64,000 nucleotides of DNA, taken from Steroidobacter gossypii. Its GTDB lineage: Bacteria; Pseudomonadota; Gammaproteobacteria; Steroidobacterales; Steroidobacteraceae. The stretch spans positions 1,302,001 through 1,366,000 of the forward strand of contig NZ_JAEVLS010000002.1 in assembly GCF_016801985.1 (NCBI RefSeq), read 5' to 3'. Below the pieces are notes generated by a model. That model was given only the letters and a program-made list of their open reading frames with translations, was not told where the DNA came from and did no database searches. A program made the translations under genes and the position numbers. Position 1 is the first letter of the stretch. Each line of letters starts with the position of its first letter. Below, one piece after another: positions 42,278-54,830 of the stretch.

Positions 42278-43666
42278 TCAACGCACATATCGCTGCTTGA
42301 GGAACGCATATAACGCACGAACCGTCTGCGGTTCCGCACCGACCGGGCGACCCGGACGCTCTTTGCCATTCCAGGCGTACAGATCCAGGTGCAGCCAGGC
42401 GCGGGCGTGGCTCACGAAGCGCCGTAAGAACAAGGCGGCGATGATGGAGCCGGAGAAGCCTGAAGCCGATACATTGTTCATGTCGGCGATTTTGCTCGAC
42501 AGCTCATCGTCGTACCCGGTCCATAAGGGCATGCGCCACATCGGATCGGCCTCGGCCCCGCCAGCGCGCAGCACTTCGTCGGCGACATCATCATCGGTGC
42601 TGTACAGCGCCGGCAGCTCCGGCCCCAGGGCCACGCGTGCGGCGCCGGTGAGCGTTGCGGTATCGATGAGCAGGTCCGGTTGTTCTTCGTCGGCGAGCGC
42701 CAGCGCATCGCAAAGAATCAGTCGGCCTTCAGCGTCGGTGTTGCCCACCTCCACCGTGAGCCCTTTACGCGTGCCGAGCACGTCGCCAGGACGAAACGCG
42801 TTGCCCGCGATCGAGTTCTCGACCATCGGCAGCAACACACGCAAACGCACCGGCAGCTTCGCGTCCATGACGGTCTGCGCCAACGCCAGCGCCACGGCGG
42901 CGCCACCCATGTCTTTTTTCATGAGCAGCATGGAGGCGCCGGGCTTGATGTCCAGCCCGCCGGTGTCGAAGCACACGCCCTTGCCCACCAATGTCACTTT
43001 CGGATGGGATGAATCGCCCCATTCGATATCAACGAGTCTTGGCGCCACCGCGGCGGCGCGGCCCACCGCGTGAATGGCAGGCAGGCGCTCCTTCAACAGA
43101 TCGTCACCGATGACGACGCGGTGCCTTGCGCCGTAACGACGCGCGACTTCGACGGCCGCTTGCGCCAGCGCCTCGGGCGACATGTCGTTGGCGGGCGTGT
43201 TGACCAGATCGCGCGCAAGCGTGCTGGCCGAACGCAATCTTTCCACCTCCGAGGCATCGGCGCCTTCCGGCAGTTGCAACTGCACCGAGCGCTGTGGACC
43301 GCCGCGCCGGTAGCGTTCGAAGCGATATTGTCCGTAGCCCCACCCTGCGGCGAATCGAGTCGCGGCATTGGCGGGCAATGCATGAGCGAGATGGTACTGA
43401 CCATCGGGCAGCCGATCGGCGAGCGCCGCGCCGAGCCAGAAGCTCATCTCCTCGCGCGGATTGTGCTTGCCTGCACCGACGATCACGCGCTCCGGTCGGC
43501 CCTGCGGCCCTGGCAGCAGCAGCGTTTTGTTTCGTTCGGCCTTGAAGCCGTGCGTTGCGGCCCAGTTGCGCACCGGCTCGTCTTGAGCGGCCCGCCACTG
43601 CTCGAACTCATCTTCGTGCAGCAGCTGTAACGGGATCGACGAGTGATTGGCGTTGGAGACAGTCAT
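42278..43666 (-). CDS. Leucyl aminopeptidase family (M17) peptidase
   Basis: The 462-residue cytosolic metallopeptidase has the M17 catalytic signature N-T-D-A-E-G-R-L-I-L near residue 320 and the metal-site K-G-V-C-F-D-T-G-G-L-D-I-K and M-K-K-D-M-G-G-A-A. It removes N-terminal residues from peptides. It is shorter than PepA and closer to the PepB-like group. It precedes the EamA gene without a gap and is divergent from the ilv leader across about 230 bases. Confidence 0.9.
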   Translation of the reverse strand: MTVSNANHSSIPLQLLHEDEFEQWRAAQDEPVRNWAATHGFKAERNKTLLLPGPQGRPERVIVGAGKHNPREEMSFWLGAALADRLPDGQYHLAHALPANAATRFAAGWGYGQYRFERYRRGGPQRSVQLQLPEGADASEVERLRSASTLARDLVNTPANDMSPEALAQAAVEVARRYGARHRVVIGDDLLKERLPAIHAVGRAAAVAPRLVDIEWGDSSHPKVTLVGKGVCFDTGGLDIKPGASMLLMKKDMGGAAVALALAQTVMDAKLPVRLRVLLPMVENSIAGNAFRPGDVLGTRKGLTVEVGNTDAEGRLILCDALALADEEQPDLLIDTATLTGAARVALGPELPALYSTDDDVADEVLRAGGAEADPMWRMPLWTGYDDELSSKIADMNNVSASGFSGSIIAALFLRRFVSHARAWLHLDLYAWNGKERPGRPVGAEPQTVRALYAFLKQRYVR

Positions 43667-43714
43667 GGCCGCAAGTGAGCCCCTGGTGGATCGTGTGGGC
43701 TCGATGGTTCACGT

Positions 43715-43728
43715 GTCACGATCGTGAC
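43715..43728. promoter_or_regulatory. Perfect 14-base palindrome between pepB-like and ilv leader
   Basis: GTCACGATCGTGAC is a perfect palindrome, 49 bases before the M17 gene start and about 170 bases before the ilv leader peptide. It looks like a dimeric operator; the regulator is unknown. The remaining part of 43667-43897 shows no gene. Confidence 0.4.
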
Positions 43729-43897
43729 GCAGCGCTCATAAGAGTAGCGCAGCTTGACAAGCAGCGCAGCCCTATGGTGCCATTCGCGGGCTTTATTGCA
43801 CACAATCCGACGCACGCACCGTTTGTTAAGCCCCGTTGTTAGAAACCAGGTCATGCCTGCAGCCACGCTCGCTTCCGCCGAATCCCTCGGCCACACG

Positions 43898-43978
43898 ATG
43901 ATCGCCGCGATCATTGTAGTAGAGCGTGTAGTCGTCTCCGGCCTGCTGCGGCGGGCTGGGTGCGGGACCGGCGTCTGA
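43898..43978 (+). CDS. ilv leader peptide (regulatory)
   Basis: This 26-codon frame encodes M-I-A-A-I-I-V-V-E-R-V-V-V-S-G-L-L then R-R-A-G-C-G-T-G-V. Eleven of the first 17 residues are Ile, Val or Leu, the products of the pathway that follows. An in-frame ATG at 43853 would give 41 codons; neither start has a strong ribosome-binding site. Its role is to stall ribosomes when branched-chain aminoacyl-tRNA is scarce, which controls the attenuator just downstream. Confidence 0.8.
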   Translation: MIAAIIVVERVVVSGLLRRAGCGTGV

Positions 43979-44027
43979 TCACCACAGGATAGAGATTCGC
44001 CATACGAACCCCGCACCGGCCAGCCCG
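43952..44027 (+). promoter_or_regulatory. Antiterminator of the ilvC attenuator
   Basis: CGGGCTGG (43952-43959) can pair with CCAGCCCG (44020-44027), and GTGCGGG (43960-43966) with CCCGCAC (44010-44016), leaving a 3-base bulge. The 3' arm overlaps the left arm and loop of the terminator at 44004-44040, so the two structures exclude each other. The 5' arm lies in the end of the leader peptide, beyond the Ile/Val codons, as ribosome-mediated attenuation requires. Confidence 0.7.
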
Positions 44028-44050
44028 AGGCGGGGTTCGTTCGTTTTTGT
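44004..44050 (+). terminator. Attenuator terminator before ilvC
   Basis: ACGAACCCCGC (44004-44014) pairs perfectly with GCGGGGTTCGT (44030-44040) across a 15-base loop and is followed by TCGTTTTTGT. The structure ends 51 bases before the ilvC start. Confidence 0.88.
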
Positions 44051-44101
44051 CACACTCGTTTTGTACACAAGCTCATCAAGCTTAAATTCGGAGAGAGCGA
44101 A

Positions 44102-45097
<996 letters not shown>

Positions 45098-45118
45098 TCT
45101 TTCTTCGAGCCACGCGAG

Positions 45119-45147
45119 TCGGCCCCGGGACGATCTTCCGGGGCCGA
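45119..45147 (+). other. Intercistronic hairpin between ilvC and ilvE
   Basis: TCGGCCCCGG (45119-45128) pairs perfectly with CCGGGGCCGA (45138-45147). No T-tract follows, so it more likely stabilises or segments the transcript than ends it. Confidence 0.6.
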
Positions 45148-45183
45148 TCGGGCGGCGGCGGAATCATCGAACAGGAGCCTCAC

Positions 45184-46143
45184 ATGCCCATCAATGCCGC
45201 GAAACATATCTGGTACAACGGCAAGCTCGTGCCCTGGGACAAAGCCCAAGTGCACGTACTGGCCCACGCGCTGCACTATGGCTCCACGGTATTCGAAGGC
45301 GAGCGCGCCTATCCGACGCCGCATGGCCCGATCATTTTTCGTTTGAAGGATCACACCCGGCGTCTGTTCGACTCCGCCAAGATCTATCACATGGAGATTC
45401 CTTACACGCCGGATGAAATCAGCGCCGCGTGCAAGGAGATCATCAATGTCAACGGCCTCACCAAGGGCGCCTATCTGCGGCCCTTCGCGTTCCGTGGCTA
45501 TGGCGAGATCGGCGTTGCGCCGAAGATTTCTCCGCCCATCGAAACGGTGATCGCCGCGTTCGAATGGGGCGCGTACCTGGGCGCCGAGGGCCTGGAGAAC
45601 GGCATCGATGTGATGGTGTCTTCGTGGCAACGCCTCGCACCCAACACCATCCCTGCGATGGGCAAGGCCGCGGGCAATTATCTGTCGAGCCAGCTCATCA
45701 GCATGGAAGCCAAGCGGCTCGGCTTTGCCGAAGGCATTGGCCTGGGGGTAGACGGTTCGGTCAGCGAGGGCGCCGGCGAGAATCTGTTCGTGATTCGCGA
45801 CGGCGTGATCTATACGCCGGGCCTGGCGAATTCGATTCTCCAGGGCATCACACGCGACACGGTCATCACCCTCGCCCGTGCTCACGGCTTCGAGGTGCGT
45901 GAGCAGGCGATTCCGCGGGAATTCCTGTACCTCGCCGATGAAATGTTCATGACCGGCACCGCAGCGGAAGTCACGCCGGTGCGCTCGGTGGACAAGGTCA
46001 CCATCGGCGCCGGCAAGCGCGGGCCGATTACTGAGGCCATTCAGACGGCGTTCTTCGGATTGTTCACGGGCAAGACCGCGGACAAGTGGGGCTGGCTCGA
46101 GCCCTGCGAGGACGGCGGCGCGAAGCAGGTTGCGACGGGCTGA
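45184..46143 (+). CDS. ilvE: Branched-chain amino acid aminotransferase
   Basis: The 319-residue class IV PLP enzyme makes the last step to valine, leucine and isoleucine. Recognisable are H-Y-G-S-T-V-F-E-G-E-R-A-Y near residue 36, the PLP-Lys region M-G-K-A-A-G-N-Y (Lys near 160) and V-S-E-G-A-G-E-N-L-F near residue 195. ATG at 45184, 86 bases after ilvC and after AGGAGCC, was chosen; the longer frame upstream is antisense-like. It is followed by a 144-base gap with a short GCGCCGC/GCGGCGC hairpin before leuC. Confidence 0.95.
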   Translation: MPINAAKHIWYNGKLVPWDKAQVHVLAHALHYGSTVFEGERAYPTPHGPIIFRLKDHTRRLFDSAKIYHMEIPYTPDEISAACKEIINVNGLTKGAYLRPFAFRGYGEIGVAPKISPPIETVIAAFEWGAYLGAEGLENGIDVMVSSWQRLAPNTIPAMGKAAGNYLSSQLISMEAKRLGFAEGIGLGVDGSVSEGAGENLFVIRDGVIYTPGLANSILQGITRDTVITLARAHGFEVREQAIPREFLYLADEMFMTGTAAEVTPVRSVDKVTIGAGKRGPITEAIQTAFFGLFTGKTADKWGWLEPCEDGGAKQVATG

Positions 46144-46287
46144 GCGCCCGGCTTGTGATCGAACGGGGGCGCCGCTGCAAGGGCGGCGCTCCATCTCTTC
46201 CGACGATGCCCCCTTCGGCAATCGTCAACCCGGCAAATCGACCGCCCTGGCATCCTTTGGAGCCTCGCCAGCCACTGGTCTAGCTCC

Positions 46288-47694
46288 ATGTCCGCCAAGA
46301 CCCTGTTCGAAAAAGTCTGGGAACAGCACCAGGTCGTGCCGGAAAGCGCCGACACGCCGGCGGTGCTTTATATCGATCTGCATCTGGTTCACGAAGTCAC
46401 TTCTCCGCAGGCCTTCTCCGTTCTGCGTTCGCAGAACCTCAAAGTCCGGCGCCCCGAGCGGGTGCTCGCGACCATGGATCACTCGACGCCGACCGATCCC
46501 GATGAAGTCTTCGGTCGCGTGCCGATCAAGGTCGAGTCCGCCGCCCGACAGGTGAAAGAGTTCGAGAAGAACTGCAAGGAGTTCGGCATCGAGCTCATGG
46601 GCCTGGGCAGCGAATATCGCGGCATCGTGCACGTGATCGGGCCTGAGCTTGGTGCGACGCAGCCGGGCAAGACCATCGTCTGCGGCGACAGCCACACCGC
46701 AACGCACGGCGCGTTCGGCGCCCTCGCCTTCGGCATCGGCACCACCGAAGTCGGTCACGTGCTCGCGACCCAATGTTTGCTCCAGCGTCGGCCTAAAACG
46801 CTTGCTATCGAAGTCACTGGCAAGCTGCGTCCTGGCGTCACGGCGAAGGATTTGATTCTCGCCATCATCGGTGAGATCGGCGTGTCCGGCGGCACCGGCT
46901 ACGTGATCGAATATCGCGGCTCCGCGATCGAAGCGCTCTCGATGGAAGAGCGCATGACTGTGTGCAACATGTCCATCGAGGCCGGTGCGCGCGCCGGCAT
47001 GATCGCACCGGACGAAACTACCTTCGCGTACCTCAGAGGCCGTCGCTTCGCTCCACAGGGCAAAGCATGGGACGAAGCCGTCGCGCGTTGGCGCGAGTTG
47101 AAGACCGATCCGGGCGCGAAGTTCGATCGCGTCGTCACCATCGACGCCGACAAGCTCGAGCCCATGATCAGCTACGGCACGCATCCCGGCATGGTCGTGC
47201 CGATCACCGGCACCGTGCCGGACATCGCCAACGATCCGGTGCACGCCAAAGCGCTCAACTACATGGGCCTGCAGGGTGGCGAGGCGATGGTCGGCAAGCC
47301 CATCCAGGTGGTGTTCATTGGCAGCTGCACCAACGGTCGTCTGTCGGATCTCGAGCTCGCCGCTGGCGTGCTCAAGGGCCACAAGGTGGCAGGCGGCGTC
47401 CGCATGCTCGTCGTGCCGGGCTCGCAACAGGTCAAGCGCGAGGCCGAGCGGCTTGGTCTCGATAAGATCTTCACCGAAGCGGGCGCCGAGTGGCGCGAGT
47501 CCGGATGTTCCATGTGCATCGGCATGAATGGCGACACCGCGGGCCGTGGCCAGTATGCGGTGAGCACCAGCAATCGCAATTTCGAAGGCCGCCAGGGCGC
47601 GGGTGCTCGCACGTTGCTCGCAAGCCCTGCGACCGCCGCAGCCGCCGCGATCGCTGGCAAGATCGCCGATCCCCGCGCCTTCCTTCCTCATTGA
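46288..47694 (+). CDS. leuC: 3-isopropylmalate dehydratase, large subunit
   Basis: The 468-residue protein is the iron-sulfur subunit that isomerises isopropylmalate in leucine synthesis. Cluster ligands are in G-S-C-T-N-G-R near residue 345 and C-S-M-C-I-G-M-N near 408; [14 protein letters not shown] marks the aconitase fold. It needs LeuD, encoded 10 bases downstream. leuA is not in this window. Confidence 0.97.
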
Positions 47695-47704
47695 GTGCCC
47701 GACC

Positions 47705-48283
47705 ATGCAACCCATCCGCACGATCGAGTCTCGCACCGTCGTCATTCCGGTGACGAACATCGACACCGACCAGATCATTCCCGCCCGTTTTCTCACGACC
47801 ACCACGCGTGAAGGTCTGGGCAAGCAGGCGTTCGCCGACTGGCGCTACGACGCCAACGGCGCGGTGAAGAGCGATTTCATTTTGAACAAGCCGGAAGTCA
47901 CAGGGGCCACCGTGCTGGTGGCCGGCCGCAACTTCGGCTGCGGCTCATCGCGCGAGCATGCGCCCTGGGCCCTGCTCGACTTCGGCTTTCGCGCCGTCAT
48001 CAGCACCGAGATCGCAGACATCTTCCGCAACAACTCGTTGAAGAACGGCCTGCTGCCCATCGTCGTCGATGAGCAGACGCACCACTGGCTGCTGGACAAT
48101 CCCGGCGCTCGGGTGAACATCGACCTGGAAACGACCACGCTGACGTTGCCTACCGGCGCCACGGCCAAGTTTCCGATCGAAGGCTTCGCACGCGTGTGTC
48201 TGTTGAACGGCGTCGATGAGCTCGGCTTCCTGCTGCAACAAGCGCCGGCCATCGAGCGTTACGAAGCGGCTCGCATGTTCTGA
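47705..48283 (+). CDS. leuD: 3-isopropylmalate dehydratase, small subunit
   Basis: The 192-residue protein completes the dehydratase with LeuC. It has [13 protein letters not shown] near residue 18 and the substrate loop [17 protein letters not shown] at 47705, 10 bases after leuC, was chosen; the frame is open further upstream only as a shadow of leuC. Confidence 0.96.
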
Positions 48284-48305
48284 TCATCCATTACTTATAA
48301 TCCTC

Positions 48306-49367
48306 ATGAAAGCAAGCATCGTGGTTCTGGGCGGCGACGGCATCGGTCCCGAAGTCACCCAACAGGGCGTGCGCGTGCTGGAAGCCGTTGCCAGCCGTTT
48401 CGGACACGAATTCAAGTTTGAATCGCACCTGATCGGCGGCGCGGCGATCGACGAGACGCAGAGCGCTCTGCCCGCTCAAACCACCTCTGCGTGCGGCACG
48501 GCCGACGCGGTGCTGCTCGGCGCGGTCGGCGGTCCGAAATGGTCCGATCCGAATGCCAAGGTTCGCCCCGAGCAAGGGCTGCTGGCGCTACGCAAAGCGC
48601 TCGGTTTGTTCGCGAACCTGCGTCCGGTGTCGCTGCATGCTGAACTGCTCGATGCTTCTCCGTTGAAACCCGAAGTGCTCCAGGGCACCGACATCGTGGT
48701 GGTGCGCGAGCTGACCGGCGGCATCTACTTCGGTGAGAAGAAACGCACCGAAGATTCGGCGAGCGATCTGTGCACTTACACCGTGGAAGAGATCGCCCGC
48801 GTGACGCGTGTAGCGGGCAACCTCGCCCGCGCCCGCCGAAAATCCATCACGTCGGTGGACAAAGCGAACGTGTTGGAAACATCGCGTCTGTGGCGCAGCA
48901 CGGTGGAGAAGGTGCTGAGCGAAGAATTTCCCGACGTGAAGCTCGAACATCAGCTGGTCGACTCGGCCGCCATGCTGCTGATCCGCAAGCCCGCAAGCTT
49001 CGATGTGATCCTCACCGAAAATATGTTTGGTGACATTCTCACTGACGAAGCTTCCATGCTCGCAGGCTCGCTCGGGCTGCTGCCCTCCGCTTCCCTTGGC
49101 GCGACCAAGCTCGGTTTATATGAGCCGATCCACGGCTCGGCGCCTGACATTGCCGGCAAAGGCATCGCCAATCCCTACGGCACCATCCTGAGTGTCGCGA
49201 TGCTGTTGAGGCACTCGCTCGAACTGAACGAAGAGGCGCAGACGGTCGAAAAGGCGGTCCAGCAGGCCATCGCCGAGGGGGTTCGGACGGCCGATATCGC
49301 CGCCAGCGGCAAGCCTGCAAGCACCGCCGAAGCGGGCGATGCGGTCCTGGCCAAGATCCTGGGCTGA
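48306..49367 (+). CDS. leuB: 3-isopropylmalate dehydrogenase
   Basis: The 353-residue NAD-dependent enzyme oxidatively decarboxylates 3-isopropylmalate. Signature residues include G-G-D-G-I-G-P-E-V near the start, [10 protein letters not shown] and [14 protein letters not shown] near residue 240, then [10 protein letters not shown]. It is the last gene of the ilvCE-leuCDB group, 22 bases after leuD. The start ATG has no strong ribosome-binding site. Confidence 0.97.
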
Positions 49368-49426
49368 TTCGGTAAGTCTCTGATTTTATTGGTTCGATAA
49401 AGAATTTATCCGACCGCAGAATAATC

Positions 49427-49457
49427 TTGACCACAATCCGGCCGAACCGGTTATGAT
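49427..49457 (+). promoter_or_regulatory. Promoter for the candidate small RNA
   Basis: TTGACC (49427-49432) and TATGAT (49452-49457) are near-consensus elements; the 19-base spacing is slightly long (18 if TTATGA is used). It lies about 60 bases past leuB and is followed by no gene on this strand. Confidence 0.5.
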
Positions 49458-49463
49458 CTGTCC

Positions 49464-49667
49464 CAAGCGTCGGATTCGATCTCTTCCGGCGCTTCCGCCT
49501 TCGGGCAAATCTCCATGTCTCGACCGCTACGGTCGAGGTGTCTTTGGTGGAAACGGGACTCGTGTCGGGTTAGTCCCCAAGGTCGGCGTCGGCTCAAACC
49601 GGCGCCGCCACGACAGCAAGTCTTAAGTTGCCACATCCCAGGCCGGCCTTGCGCCGGCCTGTTTTTG
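49464..49667 (+). ncRNA. Candidate free-standing structured small RNA
   Basis: A promoter at 49427-49457 and a strong terminator at 49639-49666 bound about 200 bases with no convincing protein. The stretch holds several clean hairpins: CTCGACCG/CGGTCGAG with a 3-base loop near 49519-49537, GGGACT/AGTCCC near 49555-49578, and GGCGTCGG/CCGGCGCC with a 6-base loop near 49584-49605. The leuB gene ends before it and the next gene, a nitronate monooxygenase, is on the other strand, so it is not a leader of anything. It does not clearly match 6S, tmRNA, SRP or RNase P RNA. The remaining 49668-49899 shows nothing recognisable. Confidence 0.5.
49639..49666 (+). terminator. Intrinsic terminator of the candidate small RNA
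   Basis: CAGGCCGGC (49639-49647) pairs perfectly with GCCGGCCTG (49653-49661), 5-base loop, followed by TTTTT (49662-49666). Confidence 0.85.
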
Positions 49668-49899
49668 TCTGCAGCTTTTCGCCCGGCCCTCCTGTCGCCA
49701 CCCACGCCGGGCTTGAGCGTAATTCTTGTACATCTTCGCCCCAGGCCGGCCGCGCATCTGCGGGCATTCACTGCGCTGCGGCAGGTGCTAGGTAGACCCA
49801 TTCCAAGGGACCGCTGGACTGGCGAACGGCGGTGGACCAGGGACCGTCCGGGGTGCTGCCGATTTTGCCTAATCAAGGTCGATCCGGGGGACGGGTGCT

Positions 49900-52080
<2,181 letters not shown>

Positions 52081-52084
<4 letters not shown>

Positions 52085-53097
52085 TTGACATCTCCAGCAG
52101 GCGATAGCGCGCGAGTGAACACTTCGCGCAAGGCTTGTGTCTCTTTCAGGAACGCATCGTGGCCGTAGAGCGAGGTGAGCTCGGCCAGGTGCGCCGGGCC
52201 ACCGAGCGAGCGCTTGAGGGCGCGCATATCTGACAGCGGCACCAGCTGATCCTCCGCTACCGCGACGAGCCAGGTCGGCACACGGATCCTGGCCGGATCG
52301 ACCTGATGCAGATCGATGGACTCCGACAGGCACACGAACGCTTCGGGGATGTAAGCCGCGGCATAAGCATCGCCCCGCGAGAGCAGATAAGACTCGACCG
52401 GGAACTGAAAGCGCCCGTCGACCCGCGTCGCGCGGCCTGCGAAACGCTGCTCGAATTCAGCGGGGCTGCGATAGGTCGCCATCGCGAGCGCACGCGCGAG
52501 ACGCAAGCCTTCCGCGCCCTGCCCGCTCTGAGTTGCGAATCGAACGACTGCACGTTGCACGCTGCGCCAGGCGGTCGCCATGGGATGCGGCCGATGCGCC
52601 GCGCTGATGACGACGATGCGCTTGGCGAGCTCCGGCCAACGCTCGGCGAACGCGAGCGCGACCATGCCGCCATAGGACGCGCCGACGATGGCTTCCAACG
52701 GCGGAAGTTTCAGGTGCGCGATCACGCGTCGGAGAATCTCGGCCTGATCCTGGGAGGCGATCGACGGGAAATCACTCTGTCCGGCACGCGGGCCGGTGGT
52801 GCCGCCGCTGCCGCCCAGGAAGTCGATGCCGAGTACGCGGTAACCCGTCGTGTCGAGCGCTCGGCCGGGACCGACGATGTCACTCCACCAGCCTTTCTCA
52901 TCGCCCGCATCGACCACGCTGCGCCCGGCAGAAATACCGCCGAGCGCCGCGATGACGGGCGCGTCCGGATCTCCGACCAGTCGCCATGCGACTCGAACGG
53001 ACTCCAGGCGGCCGCCAAAGTGCAGCGACAAGCCTTCTTCAAGCTCCAGCACGCCCTCGTGGACAGCCACGCGAGTGGGCTCGGGCACAGCATTCAT
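52081..53097 (-). CDS. metX: Homoserine O-acyltransferase (MetX, probably succinyl-type)
   Basis: The 338-residue alpha/beta hydrolase-fold acyltransferase has the nucleophile in V-G-A-S-Y-G-G-M-V-A-L, an acid in V-A-E-D-Q-L-V-P-L and His in Y-G-H-D-A-F-L-K-E. It activates homoserine for methionine synthesis. The fold is MetX, not MetA. Its short length and L-G-G-I-S-A-G segment resemble the MetX proteins of Xanthomonas relatives, which use succinyl-CoA; acyl specificity is an inference. ATG at 53097 was chosen, and the SAM riboswitch ends about 150 bases before it. Confidence 0.88.
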
Positions 53098-53246
53098 GAA
53101 TTGAACACTCCGTATCGGCACCAGCACCGCGGCCGACGGCCGGGGCTGGACAGGTTTCGCGCATCGCAGAAACCCCACGGAGGTCCGTAGAGGCAGGTCG
53201 CCGTGACCGACCGCTCAAGGCCGAGCCTTGGGCAGCTTCACAGCAA

Positions 53247-53383
53247 CTCATCTGTCGGGTGTGTCAGCCGGGCGTGCACATGGCACGCGGCTTTTCCCGC
53301 AGGAGTTGGCACCTTTTCGAGGTGGTTAATCTCGACGGTTGCCCCGGCTTCAAAGGGCCTGACCCTCAGCCGGTCTCGATGAG
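53247..53383 (-). promoter_or_regulatory. SAM-I (S-box) riboswitch controlling metX-metB
   Basis: Read on the minus strand, CTCATC (53383-53378) and GATGAG (53252-53247) form the closing stem P1. Inside are the S-box core elements in order: CTGAGGGTCAGGCCCTTTGA, AGCCGGGGCAACC, then AAGGTGCCAACTCC and the P4 hairpin GCGGG...CCCG. These match the conserved SAM-binding core. Binding of S-adenosylmethionine should turn the metXB operon off. The roughly 150 bases between P1 and the ATG must hold the expression platform; a GC-rich hairpin near 53180-53205 is possible, but no clear terminator or sequestered ribosome-binding site could be fixed. Confidence 0.92.
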
Positions 53384-53391
53384 CATGCCAA

Positions 53392-53583: not shown

Positions 53584-53931
53584 ATGAAAGAGCATCGGGC
53601 ATTGACGCCGCGCCAGGAGGCGTTGGCGGAACGGGCGCTGTTCGGCGCCATCCTGACGTTACGCAGCGTGGAAGAATGCCGCGCGTTCTTCCGCGACCTG
53701 TGCACGCCGGCCGAGTTGCAGGCGCTGGCGGATCGCTGGGCCGTGGTCGCCCTGCTGCAGCAGGGAGTGCCCTATCGGGAAATACACAAGCAGACCGGCG
53801 TCAGTGTGACCACCATCGGTCGCGTGGCCCGCTATCTGCTCAATGGCAATGGCGGCTACACGCTGGCCGCCGAACGAATGAAAGGCTCTTCCGATTCCCG
53901 TTCACCTGATACAGGGCGCGCCCGACCATGA
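53584..53931 (+). CDS. TrpR-like regulator YerC/YecD
   Basis: The 115-residue all-helical protein resembles the TrpR superfamily YerC/YecD group, with L-C-T-P-A-E-L-Q-A-L-A-D-R-W near residue 39, followed by the helix-turn-helix L-L-Q-Q-G-V-P-Y-R-E-I-H-K-Q-T-G-V-S-V-T. It is the first gene of the his operon and overlaps hisG by four bases. In Gram-positive bacteria TrpR-like YerC homologues have been proposed as histidine-pathway repressors; its position here fits the same role. It lacks the Trp-binding context needed to call it TrpR. Confidence 0.88.
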   Translation: MKEHRALTPRQEALAERALFGAILTLRSVEECRAFFRDLCTPAELQALADRWAVVALLQQGVPYREIHKQTGVSVTTIGRVARYLLNGNGGYTLAAERMKGSSDSRSPDTGRARP

Positions 53932-54830
53932 TCGACAAAGCTACCCGCCTCAAAGTAGCCCTGCAGAAGTCCGGGCGCCTCACCGAAAACTCGCTGGACC
54001 TGATGGTCCGCTGCGGTCTGAAGTACAGCCGCGGCAAGGACCAGCTGATGTGCTACGGCGAGAACATGCCGCTCGACCTGCTGTTCGTGCGCGATGACGA
54101 CATTCCGGATCTGGTGCAGCAGGATGTTTGCGATCTGGGCATCGTCGGCCTGAATGTGATCGAAGAGAAGCGCCTCGCCTTCCAGGCCAAGGGCGTGCAG
54201 CCGCTGTTCGAGCAATTGATGATGCTCGACTACGGCAGGTGTCGCCTGTCGATCGCCGTGCCCGATGGCGTCGAATACAAGGACGCCCGCTCGCTGCACG
54301 GCAAGCGCATCGCAACCACGTATCCAAACATCCTCGCGCGCTATCTTCGTCAGCGCGATGTGCAGGCGGAGATCGTGACTTTGTCTGGCGCAGTGGAGAT
54401 CGCGCCCCGGCTCGGTCGCGCTGACTTCATTTGTGATCTCGTGTCGACCGGCTCGACGCTGCTCGCGAACCATTTGTGGGAGGCCGAGACCATCCTGGAA
54501 AGCCAGGCGGCGATCATCTCCACGCCGGTGCCGGTGTCGGCGGAGAAGCAGGACTGGATCCGCCGCATCCGGCTGCGCATCGACGGCGTGCAGCAGGTGA
54601 AGGAAAGCAAATACATCATGCTGCACGCGCCGCGCTCCAAGCTTGCTGACATTCGCAAGCTCCTGCCGGGCAGCGAGTCGCCCACCATCGTGCCGCTCGA
54701 TGGCACTGGCGATAAAGTCGCGGTGCATGCGGTGTGTCGTGAGAACGTCTTCTGGGAGACGCTCGAGAGCCTGCAATCCGCCGGCGCGAGCGCCATCCTG
54801 GTGTTGCCCGTCGAGAAGATGCTGGCGTGA
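53928..54830 (+). CDS. hisG: ATP phosphoribosyltransferase (long form)
   Basis: The 300-residue enzyme joins ATP and PRPP in the first, committed step of histidine synthesis. It has the catalytic core (A-L-Q-K-S-G-R-L, D-L-G-I-V-G-L-N-V, the PRPP loop D-L-V-S-T-G-S-T-L) and the C-terminal regulatory ACT-like domain of the long form, which is feedback-inhibited by histidine. ATG overlaps the yerC stop (ATGA). A 64-base gap with a hairpin separates it from hisD. Confidence 0.96.
   Translation: MIDKATRLKVALQKSGRLTENSLDLMVRCGLKYSRGKDQLMCYGENMPLDLLFVRDDDIPDLVQQDVCDLGIVGLNVIEEKRLAFQAKGVQPLFEQLMMLDYGRCRLSIAVPDGVEYKDARSLHGKRIATTYPNILARYLRQRDVQAEIVTLSGAVEIAPRLGRADFICDLVSTGSTLLANHLWEAETILESQAAIISTPVPVSAEKQDWIRRIRLRIDGVQQVKESKYIMLHAPRSKLADIRKLLPGSESPTIVPLDGTGDKVAVHAVCRENVFWETLESLQSAGASAILVLPVEKMLA

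Follow-up and report, generated by a model that had tools for sequence, protein, structure and literature searches.

A probable ribosome-mediated attenuator before the ilvC-ilvE-leuCDB genes of Steroidobacter gossypii and its relatives

Does the short frame rich in isoleucine, valine and leucine that lies before ilvC in Steroidobacter gossypii, together with the hairpins behind it, amount to a leader-peptide attenuator, and how does it compare with those of other bacteria? In the ilv and leu attenuators of Escherichia coli and Salmonella, a leader peptide of branched-chain codons, with biased control codons, is coupled to alternative terminator and antiterminator hairpins. These systems, namely those of ilvGMEDA, ilvBN and leu, are known (PMC1183508). 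For the window, i.e., the whole 64,000-nucleotide stretch analysed here, which is part of a 7.1-Mb genome in 32 contigs, a first-pass annotation had proposed a comparable arrangement ahead of the gene order ilvC-ilvE-leuC-leuD-leuB. That order is borne out by curated protein profiles:

44102..45097, + strand: ilvC, ketol-acid reductoisomerase (TIGR00465, NF004017)
45184..46143, + strand: ilvE, branched-chain aminotransferase (TIGR01122; start chosen in this analysis)
46288..47694, + strand: leuC (TIGR00170)
47705..48283, + strand: leuD (TIGR00171; start chosen in this analysis)
48306..49367, + strand: leuB (TIGR00169; start chosen in this analysis)
49639..49671, + strand: terminator-like hairpin 3' of leuB, the likely end of the operon

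Eight terminator-like sites were counted between 43600 and 50000 against 4.9 expected in shuffles, the hairpin at 49639 being the best of the eight. The nearest named loci belong to Steroidobacter, with the IlvC of S. agaridevorans (L002) sharing 93% identity. Upstream of the leader lies a divergent cytosol aminopeptidase gene on the - strand; hence, the terminator at 44004-44040 serves no upstream gene. The best match in the genome to the operon-type LeuA, at 29% identity, is a yeast-type LeuA (L167 on contig C11; TIGR00970 at 815.5 bits, cut-off 697.4) encoded outside the ilvC operon, unlike in many relatives, which carry the other LeuA type inside it. Farther downstream in the window, a SAM riboswitch (RF00162, 78.1 bits; 53245-53385, - strand) lies upstream of an ORF for an alpha/beta hydrolase (52081-53178) and one for a Cys/Met PLP-enzyme (50918-52333). 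Beyond it, a Trp-repressor-family gene (53584-53931) overlaps the start of hisG (53928-54830) and is perhaps a histidine regulator.

The device itself is real: a frame rich in branched-chain codons, an 11-bp terminator, an antiterminator overlapping it and a protector hairpin are found together ahead of ilvC-ilvE-leuCDB. Its parts, with the putative promoter, are as follows:

43754..43783, + strand: candidate promoter, TTGACA, 18 nt, TGCCAT (read by eye)
43853..43978, + strand: predicted leader frame of 41 codons plus stop, MPAATLASAESLGHTMIAAIIVVERVVVSGLLRRAGCGTGV (its ATG shared by the five closest species)
43895..43917, + strand: 10-bp hairpin or palindrome over the first Ile codons (from folds and the five-species clade)
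43901..43948, + strand: control codons, Ile 17, 20 and 21; Val 22, 23 and 26-28; Leu 31 and 32
43937..43960, + strand: protector hairpin of 10 bp, strand 1 at 43937-43946 and the strand 2 side at 43951-43960
43952..43966, + strand: strand 2, the 5' side of the antiterminator, its core GTGCGGG (43960-43966) inside the leader frame
44004..44014, + strand: strand 3, the left arm of the terminator
44030..44049, + strand: strand 4, the right arm (44030-44040) and an interrupted U-tract

A consensus promoter scan of 43600-50000 found none, and the candidate at 43754-43783 was not among its output; five congeners (L004, L088, L089, L090 and L091) have TTGACA at the same place, with TGCTAT or TGCGAT 18 nt on. 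The terminator reported in the first-pass annotation is indeed a perfect 11-bp stem (44004-44014 with 44030-44040), as read directly from the letters, and is followed by TCGTTTTTG; the T-run reported with it holds in part, since the U-tract is interrupted (TCGTTTTT), a feature that counts against an attenuator. The 15 pairs of the antiterminator, too, are present in the window: eight (43952-43959 with 44020-44027) and seven (43960-43966 with 44010-44016), separated by a 3-nt bulge, which together take up CCCGC from the left arm of the terminator. Conservation is confined to the inner part, as the core GTGCGGG/CCCGCAC is retained in close relatives and the outer eight pairs are specific to the window (S. 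agaridevorans has TCGA where the window has CTGG). The protector helix had been missed in the first-pass annotation. The fold of the leader as a whole has a z-score of -2.66, with 2 of 200 dinucleotide shuffles equally stable. The antiterminator duplex alone, compared with mononucleotide shuffles, gave p = 0.18 and 0.06 for two slightly different segments; it is unexceptional for such GC-rich sequence, and its support is comparative. Rfam covariance models gave no match in the window leader at gathering scores, and across 11 loci, including three asnB loci, there was none up to E 0.1.

The frame first described for the leader, 26 codons from ATG 43898 to TGA 43976-43978, is nested in a longer one that begins at ATG 43853. 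Its richness in isoleucine, valine and leucine stands, and its start does not: two of the five closest species (L002 and L082) have ACG in place of ATG 43898, whereas ATG 43853 and an AGG shortly 5' of it are present in all five, that of the window included. Because the upstream ATG is kept in this five-species clade and the inner one is not, the predicted leader probably comprises the 41 codons from ATG 43853. A frame with 7 of 9 residues being isoleucine, leucine or valine and ending at most 80 nt before the terminator arose in 2 of 2000 dinucleotide shuffles. Further, its codons are biased: of the six Val codons in the leader three are GTA, whereas its share among the Val codons of 34 long ORFs from the window is 2.8%. 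The same preference runs through the leaders of relatives when set against ilvC of the same loci, be it GTA among Val codons (48/131 vs 61/1293), CTT (82/335 vs 67/1608) and CTA (21/335 vs 17/1608) among Leu codons, or ATT among Ile codons (24/54 vs 131/742). A frame open merely by chance leaves this bias unexplained.

The relatives were drawn from 110 loci, i.e., 80 named ones, that of the window, and 29 from 60 related genomes, of which 56 have ilvC (30 loci were among the matches listed). A strong terminator (better than -14 kcal/mol) precedes ilvC in 76 of the 110. From these, 25 were left out by hand, a choice that favours the structure in the 51 that remain: repeats of other loci or cut-off ones (L083, L084, L086, L097), eroded congeners (L004, L087, L088, L090, L091, L094), loci with other or misplaced hairpins (L008, L011, L013, L014, L020, L039, L045, L048, L052, L054, L092, L095, L098, L103) and one divergent locus (L057). 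Omitting the alphaproteobacterial L037, L064 and L080, 48 of the 51 rows (47 distinct) were aligned. In this comparison of the regions upstream of ilvC, which the first-pass annotation had proposed, 49 of the 51 hand-picked relatives have a frame that ends before the terminator and in which isoleucine, leucine or valine fill 5 or more of 9 residues, and the terminator is paired in 99.3% of cells of the alignment, with covariation above all 500 shuffles. The protector likewise covaries above 500/500 shuffles (51 cells changed on both sides vs 29 in shuffles); it is formed in 64% of cells, and a slide by -3, i.e., one codon, scores nearly alike. Covariation of both helices was among the tests named in the first-pass annotation, and it is found for the terminator; within this alignment the antiterminator has none (75.2% of cells paired vs 74.6% in shuffles), because its core hardly varies between rows. 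Conservation of the peptide end (CG, SG) could be an alternative cause of that near-invariance.

The pairing of strand 2 with strand 3 was also assessed in 59 leaders, a set that takes in alphaproteobacterial and other members of the class. Here, pairing of the leaders with their own arms surpasses that in each of 5000 permutations (mean -22.7 vs -20.9 kcal/mol), and 36 of the 59 duplexes are more stable than shuffled versions of themselves at p 0.05, though for the median leader 36% of foreign arms are better partners than its own arm, and kinship among rows inflates these and all the preceding comparative tests. The set includes L177, with a misassigned stop, and L057, with a stop set by hand; it is without L107, where no leader frame was found. 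Frames of the type CIIRDSVV before ilvC in L011, L013 and L095 were rejected as leaders, in L011 and L013 because the block that encodes them, TTGCAT-17 nt-TGCTAT, reads better as a putative promoter. This conserved promoter-like block recurs upstream of ilvC in L011, L013, L014, L020 and L098, so near a GC-rich terminator as to leave scarcely any room for a leader peptide; the arrangement is perhaps another kind of attenuation.

How might such a leader switch? The earlier suggestion to fold the leader with and without a ribosome yields one answer for the nascent RNA and another for the completed one. In a model of nascent RNA ending just before the right arm, with an assumed ribosome footprint, a ribosome on codons 1-30 leaves an antiterminator fraction of 0.84-1.00, apart from codons 5-8 (0.57-0.62). 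The fraction then drops to 0.55 at codon 31, 0.46 at codon 32 and 0.26 at codon 33, and between codon 34 and the stop it does not exceed 0.01. Thus, in this model, the antiterminator is lost as the ribosome passes the last Leu codons, 31 and 32. The leader of a locus from another genus (L102) shows a dependence on ribosome position like that of the window. In contrast, equilibrium folds of the full-length leader with a ribosome mask give the terminator at every ribosome position and were dropped, as uninformative, as a test of the switch. When no ribosome is present and the RNA stops short of the right arm, the partner of strand 2 is strand 3 and not strand 1; hence, the protector would have to act kinetically. 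With the terminator always winning at equilibrium and the antiterminator beating the protector in ribosome-free RNA, the modelled switch as a whole must be kinetic, which is beyond what folds alone can prove.

We consider it very probable that the device is a classical ribosome-mediated transcription attenuator. When charged Ile, Val and Leu tRNAs are ample, the leading ribosome would reach the stop at 43976 and cover strand 2 (43952-43966); strands 3 and 4 would then pair, and RNA polymerase would halt at the U-tract. When they are scarce, the ribosome would wait on the ATT, GTA, GTC and CTG codons and keep strand 1 unpaired. With strand 1 blocked, strand 2 would pair with strand 3 before strand 4 exists, and the antiterminator so formed would let transcription continue into ilvC-ilvE and probably leuCDB. 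This reading is the best supported because of the conserved place of the element, the covarying protector, the conserved core of antiterminator and terminator, the biased codons and the switch that the model places at the last Leu codons, and with it the first-pass proposal that ribosome stalling at branched-chain codons controls the operon gains support.

The congeners allow this reading to be weighed against another, that the hairpin is a premature terminator, constitutive or under control of some other kind, and the frame no sensor. The complete attenuator is present in five of the 12 congeners with a readable upstream region, which form one clade (100/100 support). Six of the 12 (L004, L087, L088, L090, L091 and L094) keep the terminator behind a leader poor in isoleucine, leucine and valine, as a premature terminator would allow; antiterminator pairing exceeds shuffles in two of these, L087 (p 0.022) and L088 (p 0.032), and does not in the other four (p 0.29-0.74). 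In L089, no terminator was found upstream of ilvC. The want of antiterminator covariation in the alignment of 48 rows speaks for the same alternative, but the branched-chain-rich frames before ilvC in nearly all the chosen relatives, their codon bias and the dependence of the switch on ribosome position in the modelled nascent RNA render it unlikely. More doubtful still is that the palindrome at 43895-43917 is a protein-binding DNA site contributing to control: the five-species clade retains it and shows one compensatory change in it, and there are six genomic sites for AYGATCGNNNCGATCRT (five besides 43895-43917) vs none for a reversed control, yet it is not evident in the other seven aligned congeners and fits a hairpin equally well. 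Least likely of all, by analogy with the Trp leader peptide of S. meliloti, whose action in trans is described in PMC7298713, the released leader RNA or peptide might additionally act in trans, a notion that the high conservation of the leader core in the intact clade would suit, though a cis role predicts the same conservation and the N-terminal half varies.

We built a covariance model (R1) from the 48 aligned rows. Of 396 genomes from the order, 288 have a match to it at E 0.01, and the best 30 matches are all located immediately ahead of ilvC, on its strand. The gene following ilvC in these best 30 is leuA in 26 and ilvA in three, with one cut off. The operon order ilvCE-leuCDB holds for the window as annotated, and most relatives have leuA as well: leuA, in some cases with ilvG and ilvA, commonly stands between ilvC and ilvE or leuC in the examined loci, and L005, L008, L011, L014 and several congeners are, like the window, without it there. 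In the genome of S. gossypii, the ilvC leader is the only strong match (75 bits), the second-best (L112) having 30 bits and an E-value of 0.007. In a sample of the class, R1 matches 20 of 369 genomes at E 0.001, of which five are from the order, S. gossypii included. The class-level matches L176, L189-L193 and L198 were rejected, as they have no amino-acid-rich leader and are probably due to chance.

The class-level matches also include Asn-rich leaders before the gene for asparagine synthase B (asnB) in another family of the class (f28); loci of this kind are L185, L196 and L199-L228, and the match L187 lies just before an asnB match. A search with AsnB matched 56 of 60 genomes of the family, with 30 loci among the matches listed, 26 of them untruncated; in 24 of the 26, the search applied recovered both a terminator and a frame, and it missed L199 and L206, although both elements are visible there. 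Among these 24 readable leaders, one of them (L221) read at a wrong hairpin, 21 have at least four Asn within a stretch of 12 residues. The frame exceeds shuffles at about 0.01 in 23 of the 24, and antiterminator pairing exceeds them at 0.05 in 15. AAT accounts for 63 of 134 Asn codons in the leaders vs 15 of 189 in asnB. A possible interpretation is that these leaders are asparagine attenuators, a type for which we found no description in open-licence full texts. Other leaders were seen around 1501-1620 of their loci. That of L180, MVNVLFNTRVIIRIIVVVISPTLCGALR, stands with a terminator before a gene for a BrnQ-like branched-chain transporter (TIGR00796 at 227 bits, below the cut-off of 243), and those of L179, L183 and L188, with runs of Thr, Ile and Val and a terminator, precede ORFs of 418-439 aa that gave no NCBIfam match at 1e-30. 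Somewhat on balance, we favour the idea that a module with strand 2 in the last leader codons is widespread and has been re-used with other codons, including those for Asn before asnB, and that the genus Steroidobacter preserves stages of its erosion.

That leader peptides attenuate ilv and leu operons has long been known (PMC1183508), and the ilvC leader described here is a well-supported addition to this kind. Vitreschak et al. in 2004 reportedly predicted ilv and leu attenuators in proteobacteria, Xanthomonads included, as the first-pass annotation also has it, and may already have covered relatives of this ilvC element. With the attenuators of E. coli and Salmonella, the element shares the leader peptide, the alternative hairpins and the biased control codons. 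It differs from them in the operon served (ilvC first, with leuCDB), in having strand 2 within the last leader codons, and in matching no Rfam family. Another counterpart is ilvBNC of Corynebacterium glutamicum, where a terminator, an antiterminator and an anti-antiterminator were demonstrated by mutation (PMC11857589); the likeness, drawn from description and not from sequence, lies in a set of three hairpins before ilv genes, there established by mutation and here computed, in another phylum and another gene order. Versions of leader-peptide attenuation before ilvB are described in Actinobacteria (PMC1262725 and PMC11857589), and the excerpt of PMC2965389 names no ilv gene.

These observations extend branched-chain attenuation to the order of Steroidobacter, with a usable RNA model. 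The strong preference of the leaders for GTA, CTT and ATT, along with the many related leaders, provides material on control-codon bias, for which plain rarity has been called an oversimplification, sensitivity to starvation being what matters (PMC1183508). If borne out, the asnB leaders would add asparagine to the amino acids sensed by leader-peptide attenuation. Finally, though the congener tree is compatible with varying numbers of losses and with regain, the staged loss within one genus lets one ask what replaces attenuation.
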